Source of the DNA: Methylobacterium sp.
GTDB lineage: Bacteria > Pseudomonadota > Alphaproteobacteria > Rhizobiales > Beijerinckiaceae
Length of the DNA stretch: 64,000 bases
Direction of reading: 5' to 3'
Assembly (NCBI GenBank): GCA_013823325.1
Contig: PNLY01000019.1
Location: 1-64,000, forward strand
Below the pieces are notes generated by a model. It saw only the letters and a program-made list of their open reading frames with translations, was not told the origin of the DNA and ran no database searches. The position numbers and the translations under genes are program-made. Shown here one piece after another: positions 54,425 through 61,214 of the stretch (within the stretch, counting starts at the first letter, position 1; every line of letters begins with the position of its first letter).

Positions 54425-54642
54425 GGCTCATCCCCGCCTTTGAGCGGTCGGGCGCCCTCCGAAAATAGCCCGCGGAGAAAGCCGCGCGAGGACGCGCGAT
54501 CGCCGTCCCGCGCGAGCTCGTCCAGATCCAGCAGCAACGCTCGTATCAGGGCGCGCTCACAGCCATGCTCCGCGATCAAATCATCGATCTCGGCCTCCAA
54601 CTCCGTCATGGGCGACGTGTCCGGCAAAGGCACGGCTGACAT
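54421..54642 (-). CDS. First gene of the LexA-controlled operon, hypothetical
   Basis: The 73-residue acidic, helical protein begins MSAVPLPDTSPMTELEAEID and contains CERALIRALLLDLDELARDGDR. The longer start at 54669 would lie inside the LexA box and -10 element, so ATG 54642, with GGAGA about nine bases upstream, is preferred. It is coupled to the next gene by ATGA. Function is unknown. Confidence 0.6.
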   Translation of the reverse strand: MSAVPLPDTSPMTELEAEIDDLIAEHGCERALIRALLLDLDELARDGDRASSRGFLRGLFSEGARPLKGGDEP

Positions 54643-54663
54643 CGGTTTCGCTCTCCAGTATGA

Positions 54664-54697
54664 GAACATAATGAGAACGCACCAGCCGAGGAGTCAA
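54664..54697 (-). promoter_or_regulatory. SOS promoter with LexA box
   Basis: GAAC-ATAATGA-GAAC (54664-54678) is exactly the direct-repeat LexA site GAAC-N7-GAAC of Alphaproteobacteria. On the minus strand TTGACT (54697-54692), an 18-base spacer and CATTAT (54673-54668) form a promoter whose -10 lies inside the box. The first gene starts 22 bases further on. Confidence 0.75.
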
Positions 54698-54805
54698 GCC
54701 GACCGGACGTTGTACACCAGACGGACAACAACCCCTTGGCCGTCATTCGACATTGCCGACGCCCTTAACCCGTGCTGCCCTTCAAGTTTAGCAGGCCGAA
54801 TCGTC

Positions 54806-56866
54806 ATGAACGCGCACGTCTATCTCGACAGCCTCAACCCGGCGCAGCGACGTGCGGTATCGCATGGCGGCGCCGCCGCCGCCGCCCCGCCGGTCCTGAT
54901 CATCGCGGGCGCCGGCTCGGGCAAGACCAATACGCTGGCGCACCGCGTCGCCCATCTCCTGGTCTGCGGCGCCGATCCGCGGCGTATCCTGCTGATGACC
55001 TTCTCGCGCCGGGCCGCCTCCGAGATGATCCGCCGTGTCGAGCGCATCGCCCGCAAGGTGATGGGCGATGGCGCCGGCGTCGCGGTCGATGCGCTGAACT
55101 GGGCCGGCACCTTCCATGGCGTCGGTGCCCGGCTGCTACGCGACCTCGCCGAGCAGATCGGGCTCGATCCCGCCTTCACCATCCATGACCGCGAGGATGC
55201 CGCCGATTTGATGAACCTGGTCCGGCACGAGCTCGGCTTCTCGAAGACCGAGGCGCGTTTTCCGACCAAGGGAACCTGCCTCTCGATCTATTCGCGCTGT
55301 GTCAACGCCGAGCAGCCGATCGAGGATGTGCTGCGGCTCTCCTATCCCTGGTGCATCGCCTGGGCGGAGGAGCTGAAGCAGCTCTTCGCGGCGTATGTCG
55401 AGGCCAAGCAGCAGCAGAACGTGCTCGATTACGACGATTTGCTGCTCTACTGGGCGCAGGCGATGAGCGACCCCGATCTCGCGACTGATGTCGGGGCGCG
55501 CTTCGACCATGTCATGGTCGACGAGTACCAGGACACAAACCGGCTGCAATCGTCGATCCTGCTGGCGCTGAAGCCCGATGGCCACGGGCTGACCGTGGTC
55601 GGCGACGACGCGCAGTCGATCTATTCCTTCCGGGCCGCCACCGTCCGCAACATCCTCGACTTCCCGCTGGCGTTCTCGCCGCCGGCCGAAGTCATCACGC
55701 TCGACCAGAACTATCGCTCGACGCAGGCGATCCTCGGCGCCGCCAACGCGGTGATCGACCTTGCCGCCGAGCGCTTCACCAAGAACCTCTGGACCGATCG
55801 CGCGGCCGGCGCCGCGCCCGAGCTGGTCAATGTCCGTGACGAGGCCGACCAGGCCCGGTTCATCGCTGAAAAGGTGCTCGAGAACCGCGAGACCGGTGCG
55901 GCGCTGAAGCAGCAGGCGGTGCTCTTCCGCGCCTCGCACCATAGCGGCCCGCTCGAAATCGAACTGACGCGCCGGAACATCCCGTTCGTGAAGTTCGGCG
56001 GGCTGAAATTTCTCGACGCCGCGCACGTCAAGGACCTGCTTGCCCTGCTGCGCTTCGTCGAGAACCCGCGCGACCGGGTCTCAGCCTTTCGCGTGATGCA
56101 GCTCCTGCCCGGCGTGGGGCCGACTTCGGCCCAGCGCGTCATCGAGCATCTGGCGCAGGCGCCCGATGGAACAGATGCCCTGCGCAACGCTCCGGCGCCG
56201 GCCCGCGCAGGAGACGACTGGACCGCCTTCGTCGAGGCGATCGAGGCGCTGCGCTCCGGCCGGTCGGGCTGGCCGGCCGAGATCGAGCGGGCCCGGCTCT
56301 GGTACGAGCCGCATCTGGAGCGCATCCATGAGGACGCGACCACGCGCCAGGCCGACCTGCTGCAGCTCGAGCAGATCGCGGGCGGCTATCCGTCGCGCGA
56401 GCGCTTCCTCACCGAGCTCACCCTCGATCCGCCGGACGCCACCAGCGACCAGGCTGGGGTGCCGCATCTCGACGAGGACTATCTGATCCTTTCGACCATC
56501 CACTCGGCCAAGGGGCAGGAGTGGAAATCGGTCTTCATCATGAATGTGGTCGACGGCTGCATCCCGATCGATCTTGGCGCCGGCGCCAAGGATGAGATCG
56601 AGGAGGAGCGCCGGCTGCTCTATGTCGCGATGACCCGCGCCAAGGACGACCTGCACCTGATGGTGCCGCAACGCTTCTTCACGCACGGCCAGTCATCGAC
56701 CGGCGACCGCCATGTCTACGCGGCCCGCACGCACTTCATCCCGAACACCCTGCTCAAGCATTTCCAGCGGCGAGCCTGGCCGCTGGCGGCACAGGCCGGC
56801 GCGCGCCCGGTTTCCGCCGGCCCGAAGATCGACGTGCGCGCCAAGATGCGCGGCATGTGGCGGTAG
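54806..56866 (+). CDS. UvrD/Rep-family ATP-dependent DNA helicase
   Basis: The 686-residue superfamily 1A helicase has all main motifs. Walker A is IIAGAGSGKTNTLAHR, motif Ia is LMTFSRRAASEM, motif II is VMVDEYQDTNRLQ and motif III is VVGDDAQSIYSFRAA. Motif IV is LDQNYRSTQAIL, motif V is LSTIHSAKGQEWKSVF and motif VI is LLYVAMTRAKDDL. It is shorter than UvrD (about 720) and lacks the UvrD C-terminal tail, closer to PcrA/Rep-like accessory helicases. The ATG at 54806 begins MNAHVYLDSLNPAQRRAV. It is divergent from the SOS operon. Confidence 0.93.
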   Translation: MNAHVYLDSLNPAQRRAVSHGGAAAAAPPVLIIAGAGSGKTNTLAHRVAHLLVCGADPRRILLMTFSRRAASEMIRRVERIARKVMGDGAGVAVDALNWAGTFHGVGARLLRDLAEQIGLDPAFTIHDREDAADLMNLVRHELGFSKTEARFPTKGTCLSIYSRCVNAEQPIEDVLRLSYPWCIAWAEELKQLFAAYVEAKQQQNVLDYDDLLLYWAQAMSDPDLATDVGARFDHVMVDEYQDTNRLQSSILLALKPDGHGLTVVGDDAQSIYSFRAATVRNILDFPLAFSPPAEVITLDQNYRSTQAILGAANAVIDLAAERFTKNLWTDRAAGAAPELVNVRDEADQARFIAEKVLENRETGAALKQQAVLFRASHHSGPLEIELTRRNIPFVKFGGLKFLDAAHVKDLLALLRFVENPRDRVSAFRVMQLLPGVGPTSAQRVIEHLAQAPDGTDALRNAPAPARAGDDWTAFVEAIEALRSGRSGWPAEIERARLWYEPHLERIHEDATTRQADLLQLEQIAGGYPSRERFLTELTLDPPDATSDQAGVPHLDEDYLILSTIHSAKGQEWKSVFIMNVVDGCIPIDLGAGAKDEIEEERRLLYVAMTRAKDDLHLMVPQRFFTHGQSSTGDRHVYAARTHFIPNTLLKHFQRRAWPLAAQAGARPVSAGPKIDVRAKMRGMWR

Positions 56867-57795: not shown

Positions 57796-58587
57796 TCAGC
57801 GCTCCAGCAGCGCCCAGACCGGAGCATGGTCGCTCGCTCCGAGCTTGCCGCGCTCGTCGCGGTCAACTCCGGCGTCCACCAGGCCCGCCGCGAGATCGGC
57901 GGACAGAAGGATATGGTCGAGCCGCAATCCGTGATCTCGATCGAAACGGCCGCGCCAATAGGTCCAGAACGAATATATCCGCTGATCGGGGAAAAGGTGC
58001 CGGACGGCATCGGTCCAGCCCTGGTCGACCAATCGACGGAAACTCCGGCGAGGCGCCGGCTGGATCAATGCATCGTCATCCCAGGACTTGGTCGGATAGA
58101 TGTCGATCTCGGTTGGAGCGACATTGTAGTCGCCGGCCAGGATCACCGGCACACCGGCCGCCTTCAGGTCGGCGGCATGCGCGATCAGCCGCTTCATCCA
58201 TGCCAGCTTGTAGTCGAATTTCGGCCCGGGCTGGGGATTGCCGTTCGGAGCGTAGATCGACGCGACGACGATCCCCGCGATGGCTGCCTCGATGTATCGG
58301 GCTTGATCATCGTCTTGGTCACCGGGAAGGCCGCGACGGGTGACCACCGGCTCCTTGCCACGCGCCAGCAGCGCGACGCCGTTCCAGGTCTTTTCACCCT
58401 GCCAGACCGCCCCGTAGCCGGCTGCTTGGATTGCCGCGACCGGGAAGGCGGCGTCCTTTGCCTTGAGCTCCTGGAGGGCGACGATATCGGGCTTCGTCGC
58501 GTCGAGCCAGGCGAGCAGGTTCGGCAGCCTCTTGTTGATGTTGTTGATGTTGAACGTCGCGACCCGCAGCCGTTTGGCTTTCGCCAT
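57796..58587 (-). CDS. xthA: Exonuclease III-type AP endonuclease
   Basis: The enzyme cuts DNA at abasic sites and trims 3' ends. The 263-residue protein shows RVATFNINNINKRL, the catalytic Glu in IVALQELKAKD, NGVALLAR, the Asp-Asn pair in LAGDYNVAPTEID and the final GASDHAPVWALL. Its ATG follows the ku stop directly, with no bases between, so the two form one operon under the minus-strand ku promoter. Confidence 0.94.
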   Translation of the reverse strand: MAKAKRLRVATFNINNINKRLPNLLAWLDATKPDIVALQELKAKDAAFPVAAIQAAGYGAVWQGEKTWNGVALLARGKEPVVTRRGLPGDQDDDQARYIEAAIAGIVVASIYAPNGNPQPGPKFDYKLAWMKRLIAHAADLKAAGVPVILAGDYNVAPTEIDIYPTKSWDDDALIQPAPRRSFRRLVDQGWTDAVRHLFPDQRIYSFWTYWRGRFDRDHGLRLDHILLSADLAAGLVDAGVDRDERGKLGASDHAPVWALLER

Positions 58588-59409
58588 CTACGCCGCCTTC
58601 TTCGCCGGCTTGCGCTTGGTCGACGGCGGCGGAGTCTGCCCGACGCTGGCCCGCAGCGCAGCCATCAGATCGACAGGCTTCGGCGCCTTGGCCTTCTTCG
58701 CGAGCTTTACCGGCTTGCCGGCGAGCTTCGCCTTCACAAGCTCGGCGACGGCCGCCTCATAGCGGTCGTCGAACGTCGCCGGATCGAACTTGCCCATCTT
58801 GGTCTCGATGATGTGCTTGGCGAGCTCGAGCATCTCCTTCTGGATCTTCAGCTTGGGGATGCCATCGAAGGCCTCGGTGGCGGAGCGGACCTCGTAGTCG
58901 AAGTTGAGGGTATGGGCGACCAGGCCCAGCCCATGCGCGCGGATCATGAGCGCGCGGTAGCGCCGAAACAGCACCGCGTGAGCGAGGGCGCCGACCTTGC
59001 TGGCGCGCAACGCCTCGCGGATCACCGCAAAGGCGTCATCGGCAATCTTGCTGGACGGCGCGAGATAATACGGCTTGTCGAAATAGACCGTGTCGATCTC
59101 ACCGCAGGGGATAAAGGCGGCGACCGCCAGCAGCTTCTTGCTCTCCGGCACCGCGCTGGCAATCTCGTCGGGCTCGACCTCGACATAGCGGTTCTCGCTG
59201 ATCTCGAAGCCCTTGATCTGGTGCTCGCGGTCGACCGGCTCTTCCGTGACCGGGTCGATGAACTCGCGCCTGACGCGATGGCCGGTGTCGCGGTTGATCG
59301 TGTGGAAGGCGATGCGCTCGGAGGTGCTGGCGCCGGTGTAAAGTGCAACCGGGCAACTGATCTCGCCGAACTTCAGATAGCCCTTCCAGTTCGCCCGCGC
59401 CGCAACCAT
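58588..59409 (-). CDS. ku: Non-homologous end-joining protein Ku (copy 1)
   Basis: Ku binds DNA ends and recruits LigD in bacterial end joining. The 273-residue protein has the full Ku core (NWKGYLKFGEISCPVALYTG, FHTINRDTGHRVRREFID, KPYYLAP, AHTLNFDYEVR) and a basic Lys/Pro tail (PPPSTKRKPAKKAA) as in DNA-binding Ku extensions. The ATG at 59409 lies inside a much longer open frame that is antisense to copy 2. It leads a ku-xthA operon behind an EcfG-type promoter. Confidence 0.95.
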   Translation of the reverse strand: MVAARANWKGYLKFGEISCPVALYTGASTSERIAFHTINRDTGHRVRREFIDPVTEEPVDREHQIKGFEISENRYVEVEPDEIASAVPESKKLLAVAAFIPCGEIDTVYFDKPYYLAPSSKIADDAFAVIREALRASKVGALAHAVLFRRYRALMIRAHGLGLVAHTLNFDYEVRSATEAFDGIPKLKIQKEMLELAKHIIETKMGKFDPATFDDRYEAAVAELVKAKLAGKPVKLAKKAKAPKPVDLMAALRASVGQTPPPSTKRKPAKKAA

Positions 59410-59442
59410 GACACGCCACTCCCAACGCAACACCAGCGATTC

Positions 59443-59467
59443 AATGCGGCTGCGCTCGACAGGTTCC
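59443..59467 (-). promoter_or_regulatory. EcfG-type promoter of ku copy 1
   Basis: On the minus strand the sequence reads GGAAC, 16 bases, CATT, one base from the consensus CGTT. Its -10 end is 33 bases before the ATG. It is the mirror image of the promoter at 59477-59501. Confidence 0.65.
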
Positions 59468-59476
59468 GCCCGGCAG

Positions 59477-59501
59477 GGAACTGAATCGATCAAGCGGCAT
59501 T
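59477..59501 (+). promoter_or_regulatory. EcfG-type promoter of ku copy 2
   Basis: GGAAC, 16 bases, CATT on the plus strand, with -10 end 34 bases before the ATG, matches the other ku promoter in motif, spacing and distance to the start. Confidence 0.65.
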
Positions 59502-59535
59502 GAGTTGGCAGCTGCGTTCCCGGAGTTGCGTCGTC

Positions 59536-60339
59536 ATGCCGGCCAGGACCTATTGGAAGGGCTACCTCAAGCTCTCGCTCGTCACCTGTCCTGTCGCCAT
59601 GAGCCCGGCGACCTCGGAGAGCGAGAAGGTCCGCTTTCACACGCTCAATCGCGACACCGGCAATCGTGTCGTCAGCCGCTATGTCGATGCCGAGACCGGC
59701 AAGCCCGTCGAGCCGGACGGTCAGGCAAAGGGCTATGAGGCCGAAGCCGGCCGGCTCGTGGTGATCGAGGACGAGGAGCTCGAAGCGGTCAGGCTGGATA
59801 CCGTCCGCACGATCGACATCGACGCCTTCGTCCCGCGCGACTCCATCCCTTGGATCTATCTCGACAGCCCGCATTATCTGGTGCCGGCCGACGAGGTCGG
59901 CGAGGAGGCCTTTTCGGTCATCCGCGACGCCATGGCGGCGACAAAGATGGTCGGCGTCTCCCGCGTCGTCCTCTATCGCCGCGAGCGCGCGGTGATGCTG
60001 GAGCCGCGCGACAAGGGCATCGTGCTCTGGACGCTGCGCTATGGCGACGAGGTCCGCGACGAGAAGGGCTACTTCGTCGACATCGACAAGGCGAAGCCGG
60101 AGCCCGAGCTGCTCGACCTGGCGCAGAAATTCATCAAGGCGAAGACCAGGGACTGGTCGCCGGAGATGGTGAAGGACCCGGTCCAGGAGCACCTGCTCAA
60201 GCTGATCGCGTCGAAGAAGCGCAAGGGCGCCCGCAAATCCGCAGGCGATGCCGACAAGGGCCGCCCGGGCAACGTCGTCAACCTGTTCGAGGCCCTGAAG
60301 AAGAGCCTGCAGGCGGACAAGTCGCTGCGGGAGTCTTGA
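59536..60339 (+). CDS. ku: Non-homologous end-joining protein Ku (copy 2)
   Basis: The 267-residue second Ku has the same core (YWKGYLKLSLVTCPVAMSPA, FHTLNRDTGNRVVSRYVD, SPHYLVP, LWTLRYGDEVRDE) but a different end. It has RKGARKSAGDADKGRPGNVVN and the terminal NLFEALKKSLQAD, in place of the Lys/Pro tail of copy 1. Two or more divergent Ku copies are known in Sinorhizobium, where they can act as heterodimers. An alpha/beta hydrolase gene begins eight bases after the stop. Confidence 0.95.
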   Translation: MPARTYWKGYLKLSLVTCPVAMSPATSESEKVRFHTLNRDTGNRVVSRYVDAETGKPVEPDGQAKGYEAEAGRLVVIEDEELEAVRLDTVRTIDIDAFVPRDSIPWIYLDSPHYLVPADEVGEEAFSVIRDAMAATKMVGVSRVVLYRRERAVMLEPRDKGIVLWTLRYGDEVRDEKGYFVDIDKAKPEPELLDLAQKFIKAKTRDWSPEMVKDPVQEHLLKLIASKKRKGARKSAGDADKGRPGNVVNLFEALKKSLQADKSLRES

Positions 60340-60347
60340 AGGCGTGG

Positions 60348-61214
60348 ATGTCAATGTTTGAAGGCTTCGCCGTCGACGTCATAGAGTTGAGCGAGGCCAC
60401 ATTGCGTGTGCGGCATGGCGGCAAGGGCGAGCCCTTGCTGCTGTTGCACGGGCATCCGCGCACTCATGCGACCTGGCATCGGGTCGCGCCGTTGCTGGCG
60501 ACTGATTTCCACGTCGTTTGTCCAGACCTGCGAGGCTTCGGACAATCCTCACGTCCGCCTGAAATGCCGCACCATGCCGGTTCGTCGAAGCGCGCGAAGG
60601 CGCGGGACTGCCTGGAGTTGATGGCGCGGCTCGGTTTCGGGCGTTTCCATGTCGCCGGCCACGATCGGGGCTCGTACACGGCTTTTCGACTGGCGATGGA
60701 TCACCCCGACGCGGTGCAGCGACTGGCCGTGATGGACGGCGTACCGATCCTCGAGGCCCTTGAACGCTGCACTGAAAAGTTCGCGCGGCTCTGGTGGCAC
60801 TGGTTCTTCTTCTGCCAGCCAGACAAGCCCGAGCGAGCGATCCTCGCCGACCCAATAGCATGGTATGGCGGTGATCCCGCGTCGATGGGGTCAGAGAACT
60901 ACGCCGATTTCCTGGCAGCCATTCAGGATCCTGGCACGATCCACGGCATGCTCGAAGACTATCGCGCGGGGCCGGCGATAGATCGCTTTCACGACGCAGC
61001 CGACCGCGAGCAAGGTCGAACTTTGCGATGCCCGCTGCTCTGCCTCTGGTCCGAGCGCGATGATCTGCCCGAACTCTATGGGGATGTGCTCGATGTCTGG
61101 CGCCCCTGGGCACCCGATCGCCGAGGGCACGCAATCGCCAGCGGCCACCACATGGCAGAAGAGGCGCCGGAGGCCGTTGCGCGAGCACTGCGGCATTTTT
61201 TCGCCGAACGGTGA
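60348..61214 (+). CDS. Alpha/beta hydrolase, haloacetate dehalogenase-like
   Basis: The 288-residue protein has the alpha/beta hydrolase oxyanion region LLLLHGHPRTHATWHRVAP and PDLRGFGQSSRP. The nucleophile is Asp106 (VAGHDRGSYTAFRLAM), as in haloacetate dehalogenase DehH1 and epoxide-hydrolase-like enzymes, rather than Ser. The histidine is in ASGHHMAEEAPE. AAGG five bases before ATG 60348 favours that start over 60354. It is probably co-transcribed with ku copy 2, so it is stress-induced; its natural substrate is unknown. Confidence 0.87.
   Translation: MSMFEGFAVDVIELSEATLRVRHGGKGEPLLLLHGHPRTHATWHRVAPLLATDFHVVCPDLRGFGQSSRPPEMPHHAGSSKRAKARDCLELMARLGFGRFHVAGHDRGSYTAFRLAMDHPDAVQRLAVMDGVPILEALERCTEKFARLWWHWFFFCQPDKPERAILADPIAWYGGDPASMGSENYADFLAAIQDPGTIHGMLEDYRAGPAIDRFHDAADREQGRTLRCPLLCLWSERDDLPELYGDVLDVWRPWAPDRRGHAIASGHHMAEEAPEAVARALRHFFAER

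Follow-up and report, generated by a model that had tools for sequence, protein, structure and literature searches.

The window analysed here is a stretch of 64,000 nucleotides (contig PNLY01000019.1 of assembly GCA_013823325.1, deposited as Methylobacterium sp., a genome of the Bosea type). It carries two ku genes that face away from each other, with their ATGs at 59409 on the minus strand and at 59536 on the plus strand and a gap of 126 bp between them (midpoint 59472.5). We consider it highly likely, with a probability of roughly 0.85, that this is a stress-inducible Ku pair in which each ku operon is read from a predicted EcfG promoter of its own, the two promoters being placed back to back in this clade. 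The pair probably represents the Ku3/Ku4 type known from Sinorhizobium meliloti. Upon stress, PhyR removes NepR from EcfG, the sigma factor of the general stress response. In the present bacterium PhyR would free EcfG in this way, the EcfG-RNA polymerase would then transcribe both ku operons, and the two Ku subunits made, which probably pair with each other, would work with the single clear LigD that is encoded elsewhere near a third ku gene. Stress control of Ku by EcfG or RpoE2 is known already, which makes the promoter pair by itself a neat further example; the new part is a conserved GANTC site, the methylation motif of CcrM, in EcfG-type ku promoters.

EcfG-type boxes in front of both ku genes

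The left Ku was matched in 55 of the 67 genomes of the genus sample (the named members of which are Bosea) at 1e-30, a Ku domain was present in 35 of the 60 genomes of a family sample, and 80 of 478 loci were kept from public genomes. From 162 loci we retained 111 distinct left/right pairs in which both Ku exceed 270 bits, lie at most 5 kb apart and have different left genes, weaker or single Ku being dropped. They comprise 42 convergent pairs separated by 400 bp or more (convergent-far), 27 convergent-adjacent, 24 tandem and 18 divergent pairs. One divergent row, locus L064, combines the left ku with a right ku that lies 4.1 kb from it, the adjoining right ku being a piece of 44 residues; this row was counted in the tallies of promoter boxes and GANTC positions and excluded from the analyses of the tree, the geometry, the spacer matches and the base changes. 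In two further divergent rows, L091 and L151, the right ku is cut by a contig end or contains a stop.

The box GGAAC-N18/19-TT lies within 150 bp upstream of the left ku in 18/18 divergent, 27/27 convergent-adjacent, 40/42 convergent-far and 24/24 tandem pairs. It is found equally close to the right ku in 18/18 divergent (one being the non-adjacent gene of L064), 25/27 convergent-adjacent and 39/42 convergent-far pairs, with shuffled sequences giving means of 0.02 to 0.72 rows per class. None of the 24 right ku that come second in a tandem pair has the box within this distance, which indicates that the downstream ku of such an operon lacks a promoter of its own. The stricter pattern GGAAC-N16/17-CRTT, again within 150 bp, is present in the divergent pairs in front of 16 of the 18 left and 13 of the 18 right ku (shuffles gave means of 0.08 and 0.04 rows, respectively). 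An EcfG-like box in each direction within a 126-bp gap is far beyond chance. Read outwards in the window, each strand gives GGAAC-N16-CATT followed by 33 (left) or 34 (right) bases to the ATG, and the -10 element CATT differs by one base from the CGTT of the EcfG consensus GGAAC-N16-CGTT, as given in the accessible part of PMC3892343.

Several observations weigh against this assignment. The strict CRTT box is rarer in the other arrangements, where it precedes the left ku in 7/27 convergent-adjacent, 35/42 convergent-far and 2/24 tandem pairs and the right ku in 23/27, 30/42 and 0/24 pairs, respectively. Across the present genome GGAAC-N16/17-CGTT occurs 81 times and its reversed control 122 times, so that the motif alone predicts nothing and only its conserved place does; genome-wide counts of the motif were therefore discarded as evidence. 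Furthermore, replacing CGTT by CATT reduced transcription in vitro in Sphingopyxis, although a natural CATT promoter is functional (PMC7083833).

The present genome encodes phyR divergent from nepR-ecfG. A mirrored promoter at phyR/nepR had been envisaged as a model for the layout and was rejected, since by eye GGAAC-N16-CGTT is found on the nepR side and no back-to-back partner box on the phyR side in this genome. The pSymB ku pair of S. meliloti Rm41, which is probably ku3/ku4 judging by its plasmid (the record showed no such annotation), has one EcfG-type promoter. Induction of the S. meliloti Ku3/Ku4-LigD4 pathway by RpoE2 was reportedly first described by Dupuy et al. in 2019. As stated in PMC12844678, Ku3/Ku4-LigD4 is induced via RpoE2. 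The S. meliloti system has in common with the window two unlike Ku of the same two families, an EcfG-type promoter and a general stress response sigma factor as inducer. It differs in that the Rm41 genes form a tandem operon with one promoter and two GANTC sites, whereas the window has two divergent operons with two putative promoters and lacks an adjoining LigD. In Sphingomonas melonis, a ku gene is listed in an EcfG-regulon table with a log2 ratio of -3.2, and a motif located 30 bp upstream of it contains GGAAC (PMC6599016). This gene of strain Fr1 resembles those of the window in having a GGAAC-type motif at some 30 bp from its start. It differs in that the motif ends in AATT, and the accessible portion of that source describes one Ku and mentions no mirrored pair.

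The EcfG type of both putative promoters in the window is thus well supported at the sequence level. It had been proposed in the initial annotation and is borne out by the conserved place of the boxes, by the presence of ecfG, nepR and phyR in the genome, and by a published EcfG-dependent ku in another genus.

Mirror symmetry and geometry of the promoter pair

The intergenic region had been described as containing two nested dyads, and all coordinates given for them, including the midpoint and the dyad centres, are correct. The inner dyad, GTTCC-N9-GGAAC at 59463-59481, and the outer one, TCAATGCGGCT (59441-59451) / AGCGGCATTGA (59493-59503), are both centred on 59472, the outer dyad being complementary at 10 of 11 positions rather than at every one. 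The layout is kept in close relatives, a point on which the initial annotation had made its proposal depend. Among 17 divergent loci, eight including the window have the promoters back to back with the boxes 7-9 bp apart, and two more have the same orientation with distances of 6 and 21 bp. The remaining seven loci, from six genomes, are interlocked as GGAAC-N7-GTTCC, each -35 box lying within the spacer of the other promoter at a constant offset.

Taken alone, the mirror symmetry is modest, since 16 of 31 mirrored positions match around 59472 and, across the window, 449 of 63,920 centres reach at least this number. When the -35 box (5 bases), the -10 box (4 bases) and the next two bases (GA) are set aside, 5 of 20 positions match compared with 5.3 expected. 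In the eight loci of the same geometry, 40 of 128 positions (0.31) are identical between the spacers of the left and right promoters (mean of shuffles 0.26, maximum 0.37), as are 48 of 136 positions (0.35 versus 0.32) in the downstream parts. The spacers of the seven interlocked loci match at 43 of 112 positions (0.38, the maximum of the shuffles also being 0.38), the overlap of the spacers being part of this design. Since the residual likeness of left and right is at the level of chance, the mirror amounts to two copies of one promoter consensus; it consists of the two EcfG consensus copies, each followed behind its -10 box by some bases of a GANTC site, and the outer dyad is precisely such a -10 box with part of the CcrM motif.

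It had also been suggested that the symmetry is a leftover of the inverted duplication from which both ku genes arose, and the dyad itself is what such an event might leave behind. We calculated a maximum-likelihood tree, which carries a long-branch warning, from 94 Ku, namely those of 43 pairs out of the 111, the two of S. meliloti Rm41 and six others. The 44 left Ku without exception fall on one side of branches supported at 100/100, and the 44 right Ku on the other. The arrangements sort alike in both halves, with the divergent loci forming one group inside each (support 100/95 on the left and 94/93 on the right), and the Rm41 pSymB pair groups with the tandem pairs in both the L and the R family. 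Because the two families are reciprocally separate and are paired in four arrangements, the duplication predates the divergent arrangement, and this excludes an inverted duplication as the source of the symmetry. The absence of any clear likeness between the left and right promoters beyond the motifs, in the spacers as well as in the residual positions, speaks against it too, and we regard this origin as ruled out for all practical purposes.

A palindromic layout would also be compatible with an operator for a dimeric regulator, in which case the nested dyads would not be promoters. The spacing between GTTCC and GGAAC is indeed steady, at 7-9 bp in one geometry and, inverted, at exactly 7 bp in the other. 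However, the same GGAAC box is found before ku genes that have no mirrored partner, and the interlocked spacing is constant because each -35 box sits in the spacer of the other promoter. We hold an operator in place of two promoters to be very improbable.

Mirrored pairs of this kind are not confined to ku. The pattern AANG-N16-GTTCC-N5..15-GGAAC-N16/17-CNTT is present in 51 of the 67 genus genomes compared with 3 matches in total for the reversed control; as it holds one spacer at N16, interlocked pairs and those with N17 on that side are uncounted. It marks 73 mirrored places, 7 at ku and 66 elsewhere in 46 genomes, the present genome having the ku pair only. The idea that the mirror symmetry is specific to Ku was dropped because of these 66 other places. 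They have the same back-to-back layout as the window and would be candidates for EcfG control, and the few neighbours examined are not genes of non-homologous end joining; one pair lies between DUF892 and opposite PepSY genes (L209). A pair of this pattern, seen for instance at L207 and L211, recurs in many genomes of the genus, and L207 adjoins a DUF992 gene as well as a small protein that matches no Pfam family. A second copy of a ku promoter pair (L212, G085:C1:6004873-6004930), which is one of the 7 places counted at ku, lies in a stretch of 954 bp that is 98.7% identical to the divergent locus L037 of the same genome; it includes part of the right ku, and no match to the left ku is found there among the matches listed.

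Whether the two promoters fire together is a separate matter. Both ku genes seem to stand under one signal. The initial proposal that back-to-back EcfG promoters fire both operons together is not supported, and is doubtful, for one DNA molecule. In the window the -35 boxes are 9 bp apart and, judging by the geometry, simultaneous binding by two polymerases would be tight; at the interlocked promoters of the relatives two polymerases could hardly be bound at once. The promoters would then be used alternately rather than simultaneously. In this context, the back-to-back and interlocked divergent pairs represent a natural experiment on joint firing of two stress promoters.

The geometry had further been linked to selection for equal amounts of the two subunits of a Ku heterodimer. 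The distances from the -10 box to the ATG are nearly equal in the eight loci of the same geometry (32-35 on the left, 33-34 on the right). In S. meliloti, genetic evidence reportedly led to the proposal of a Ku3-Ku4 heterodimer, which would agree with such selection. The pathway itself is named in PMC12844678. On the other hand, other divergent loci have unlike distances on the two sides (43/26 in L043, 48/22 in L091), the ku genes of other clades have unlike promoters or a single one, and the seven interlocked loci would leave hardly any room for two polymerases at the same time. Selection for equal output is unsupported and the layout does not require it; we think it improbable.

A GANTC site after the -10 box of ku promoters

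The part of the outer dyad that lies outside the EcfG consensus belongs to a site that is conserved in many ku promoters. Its position, column profile and base changes were analysed in promoters with GGAAC-N18/19-TT. After dereplication, GANTC directly follows the TT in 13/15 left and 9/14 right promoters of divergent pairs (one of the 14 being the L064 row), in 8/13 tandem promoters (11/13 within 3 bases) and in 8/30 left promoters of convergent-far pairs. Counting all GANTC in the promoter stretches gives 13 compared with 0.80 expected for divergent left, 13 compared with 0.75 for divergent right, 26 compared with 0.70 for tandem and 9 compared with 1.62 for convergent-far left promoters. 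The column profile reads GA-N-TC-G and the middle base takes all four values. By parsimony on Ku protein trees, the five positions of the site underwent 3, 5, 11, 5 and 2 changes in 41 left promoters, while 30 other positions underwent 7-16 changes (median 10). The contrast is weaker in 17 right promoters, with 0, 2, 7, 2 and 3 changes against 2-8 (median 5) elsewhere, and the change counts of the other arrangements do not have the GA-N-TC pattern.

The site also sets the ku promoters apart from the other mirrored pairs of the genus. GANTC follows the -10 box on at least one side in 7/7 mirrored pairs at ku compared with 1/66 elsewhere. The TTGANTC matches listed include none from genomes G122 and G123; the pair of G122, one of the 66, was not judgeable, and G123 was scored from the tallies of Ku-pair promoters. 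These rows share descent, so a Fisher value would not be a clean probability and the parsimony change counts are the better test. Genus-wide, GGAAC-N18/19-TTGANTC gives 164 matches compared with 76 for the reversed control, and at least 40 of the 153 matches listed lie directly before ku, a lower bound given that 41 ku places were drawn from a longer list. The present genome has three matches (two for the reversed control), located before the left ku, the operon of a third, ku2-type ku and a small gene without a Pfam match.

In tandem ku promoters the -10 box is often preceded by another GANTC. Among 297 genomes of the order, the double site GGAAC-N11/12-GANTC-NNTT-GANTC occurs at 4 places, of which 3 precede a Ku gene and 1 a DUF892 gene, and the ku pair of S. 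meliloti Rm41 has a double site as well. In S. meliloti AK21 a tandem ku pair on pSymA (L200, 3942-5696) has three GANTC in its promoter; its right ku matches in three pieces and looks broken.

We tentatively propose that, in addition to being EcfG-dependent, such promoters might be gated by methylation. CcrM would methylate the GANTC after the -10 box, and full, hemi- or absent methylation would alter EcfG-dependent firing either directly or via GcrA. A consequence that we hold to be equally tentative is that production of Ku would be largely restricted to periods in which the locus was not recently replicated and a sister copy is unavailable. The position of the site in most divergent and tandem ku promoters far above expectation, its free middle base with fewer changes at the other four positions, its presence in the mirrored pairs at ku, and the double sites behind GGAAC are all in favour of such a gate. 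The present genome encodes CcrM (PF01555 with RAMA PF18755, adjoining a MutY-like gene) and GcrA (L201, PF07750, 193.6 bits). The ku promoters often read T-GANTC-G, with G following GANTC in 31 of 42; the extended activating motif of GcrA in Caulobacter is YGAKTCG, according to the available part of PMC7987155. The methylation state of GANTC alters binding of GcrA, that of S. meliloti included, as far as PMC3667746 is accessible.

Other data are at odds with a methylation gate. GANTC directly after the TT was found in 0/21 left and 0/18 right promoters of convergent-adjacent pairs and in 0/30 right promoters of convergent-far pairs, so that the site is not general. In the divergent loci L043 and L091 it follows the -10 box on neither side, and in the window only the left promoter has GANTC in this position, that of the right promoter lying in the spacer only. 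Only 10 of 30 ku2-type operons have GANTC after their box, and about half of the genus-wide TTGANTC matches are at the level of the control. A regulator of another kind reading GA-N-TC would look identical. GcrA is described as a cofactor of sigma-70. The ctrA P1 and mipZ promoters of C. crescentus resemble the window in having GANTC in the promoter region; they are described with sigma-70, whereas the ku promoters are of the EcfG type and their dependence on methylation is putative. In Ensifer, GANTC is not enriched before cell-cycle genes, at least in the accessible part of PMC8725594.

It is somewhat more speculative still to extend this proposal to many alphaproteobacterial Ku genes, in which a CcrM site after the EcfG -10 box could be an epigenetic gate that joins stress and replication state and limits error-prone end joining mainly to times without a sister chromosome. 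With the same reserve, the mirrored Bosea pair could be one layout of such a gate and the tandem operons of S. meliloti and Rhizobium, with GANTC on both sides of the -10 box, another. If true, this would explain how these bacteria reserve error-prone repair for times without a template. The conserved GANTC hints at a link between break repair and replication state and is the part worth a bench test, for which S. meliloti is suited. A literature search conducted mostly without subscription papers found none joining GANTC, CcrM and non-homologous end joining, nor GANTC and RpoE2; two papers combine GANTC with double-strand break, Alphaproteobacteria and stress.

Features of the window and further ku loci

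The features of the locus are compiled in the table. Both Ku of the window are above the TIGR02772 (Ku_bact) cut-off of 150 bits, and the genes initially called as two ku, xthA and a hydrolase are upheld by the matches to TIGR02772, TIGR00633 and PF00561.

Table. Genes and putative promoter elements of the divergent ku locus (positions in the window)
Feature	Position	Strand	Basis and remarks
Left ku (L-type)	58588..59409	-	TIGR02772 266.5 bits, PF02735 134 bits; L family by tree, as is the upstream ku of S. meliloti pSymB
Right ku (R-type, paralogue of left ku)	59536..60339	+	TIGR02772 282.3 bits, PF02735 157.8 bits; R family by tree
xthA (exodeoxyribonuclease III)	57796..58587	-	TIGR00633 222.5 bits; begins right at the left ku stop, no gap
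Alpha/beta hydrolase	60348..61214	+	PF00561 85.1 bits; start read from sequence, 8 bases past the right ku stop
-35 box GGAAC, putative left ku promoter	59463..59467	-	sequence; kept in relatives
-10 box CATT, putative left ku promoter, N16 from -35	59443..59446	-	sequence
-35 box GGAAC, putative right ku promoter	59477..59481	+	sequence; kept in relatives
-10 box CATT, putative right ku promoter, N16 from -35	59498..59501	+	sequence
9-bp spacer separating both -35 boxes	59468..59476	.	7-9 bp across eight loci of the same geometry
GANTC site (GAATC) right after left -10 box	59438..59442	-	sequence, relatives, change counts
GANTC site (GAATC) just inside right -35 box, in spacer	59483..59487	+	sequence; present in 5/8 loci of this geometry
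GAGTT after right -10 box, not GANTC	59502..59506	+	7 other loci of this geometry carry GANTC there

Conserved ku-xthA and ku-hydrolase operons were considered and dropped: of 10 divergent loci examined, 2 have xthA immediately behind the left ku and in none was the hydrolase found, some flanks ending with the contig. A long open reading frame at 54440-56866 on the plus strand, a few kb from the ku pair, resembles by eye a UvrD/Rep-type helicase.

LigD is encoded on another contig than the ku pair (G000:C157, TIGR02779 370.7 bits), which is the only match in the genome above the cut-off, a second one reaching 109.9 bits. On the same contig, upstream of LigD, lies the third ku (G000:C157:1905-4720; L161, L167), which is of the ku2 type, stands behind a small open reading frame and has its own EcfG-like box followed by GACTC.

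A divergent ku pair appears to be decaying in Bosea sp. Tri-44 (L064) and in genome G081 (L148, contig C20), where a second, convergent ku pair is located nearby, the right ku is the 44-residue piece and the right -10 box reads CAGT. In the G081 copy the left ku has an internal TGA.

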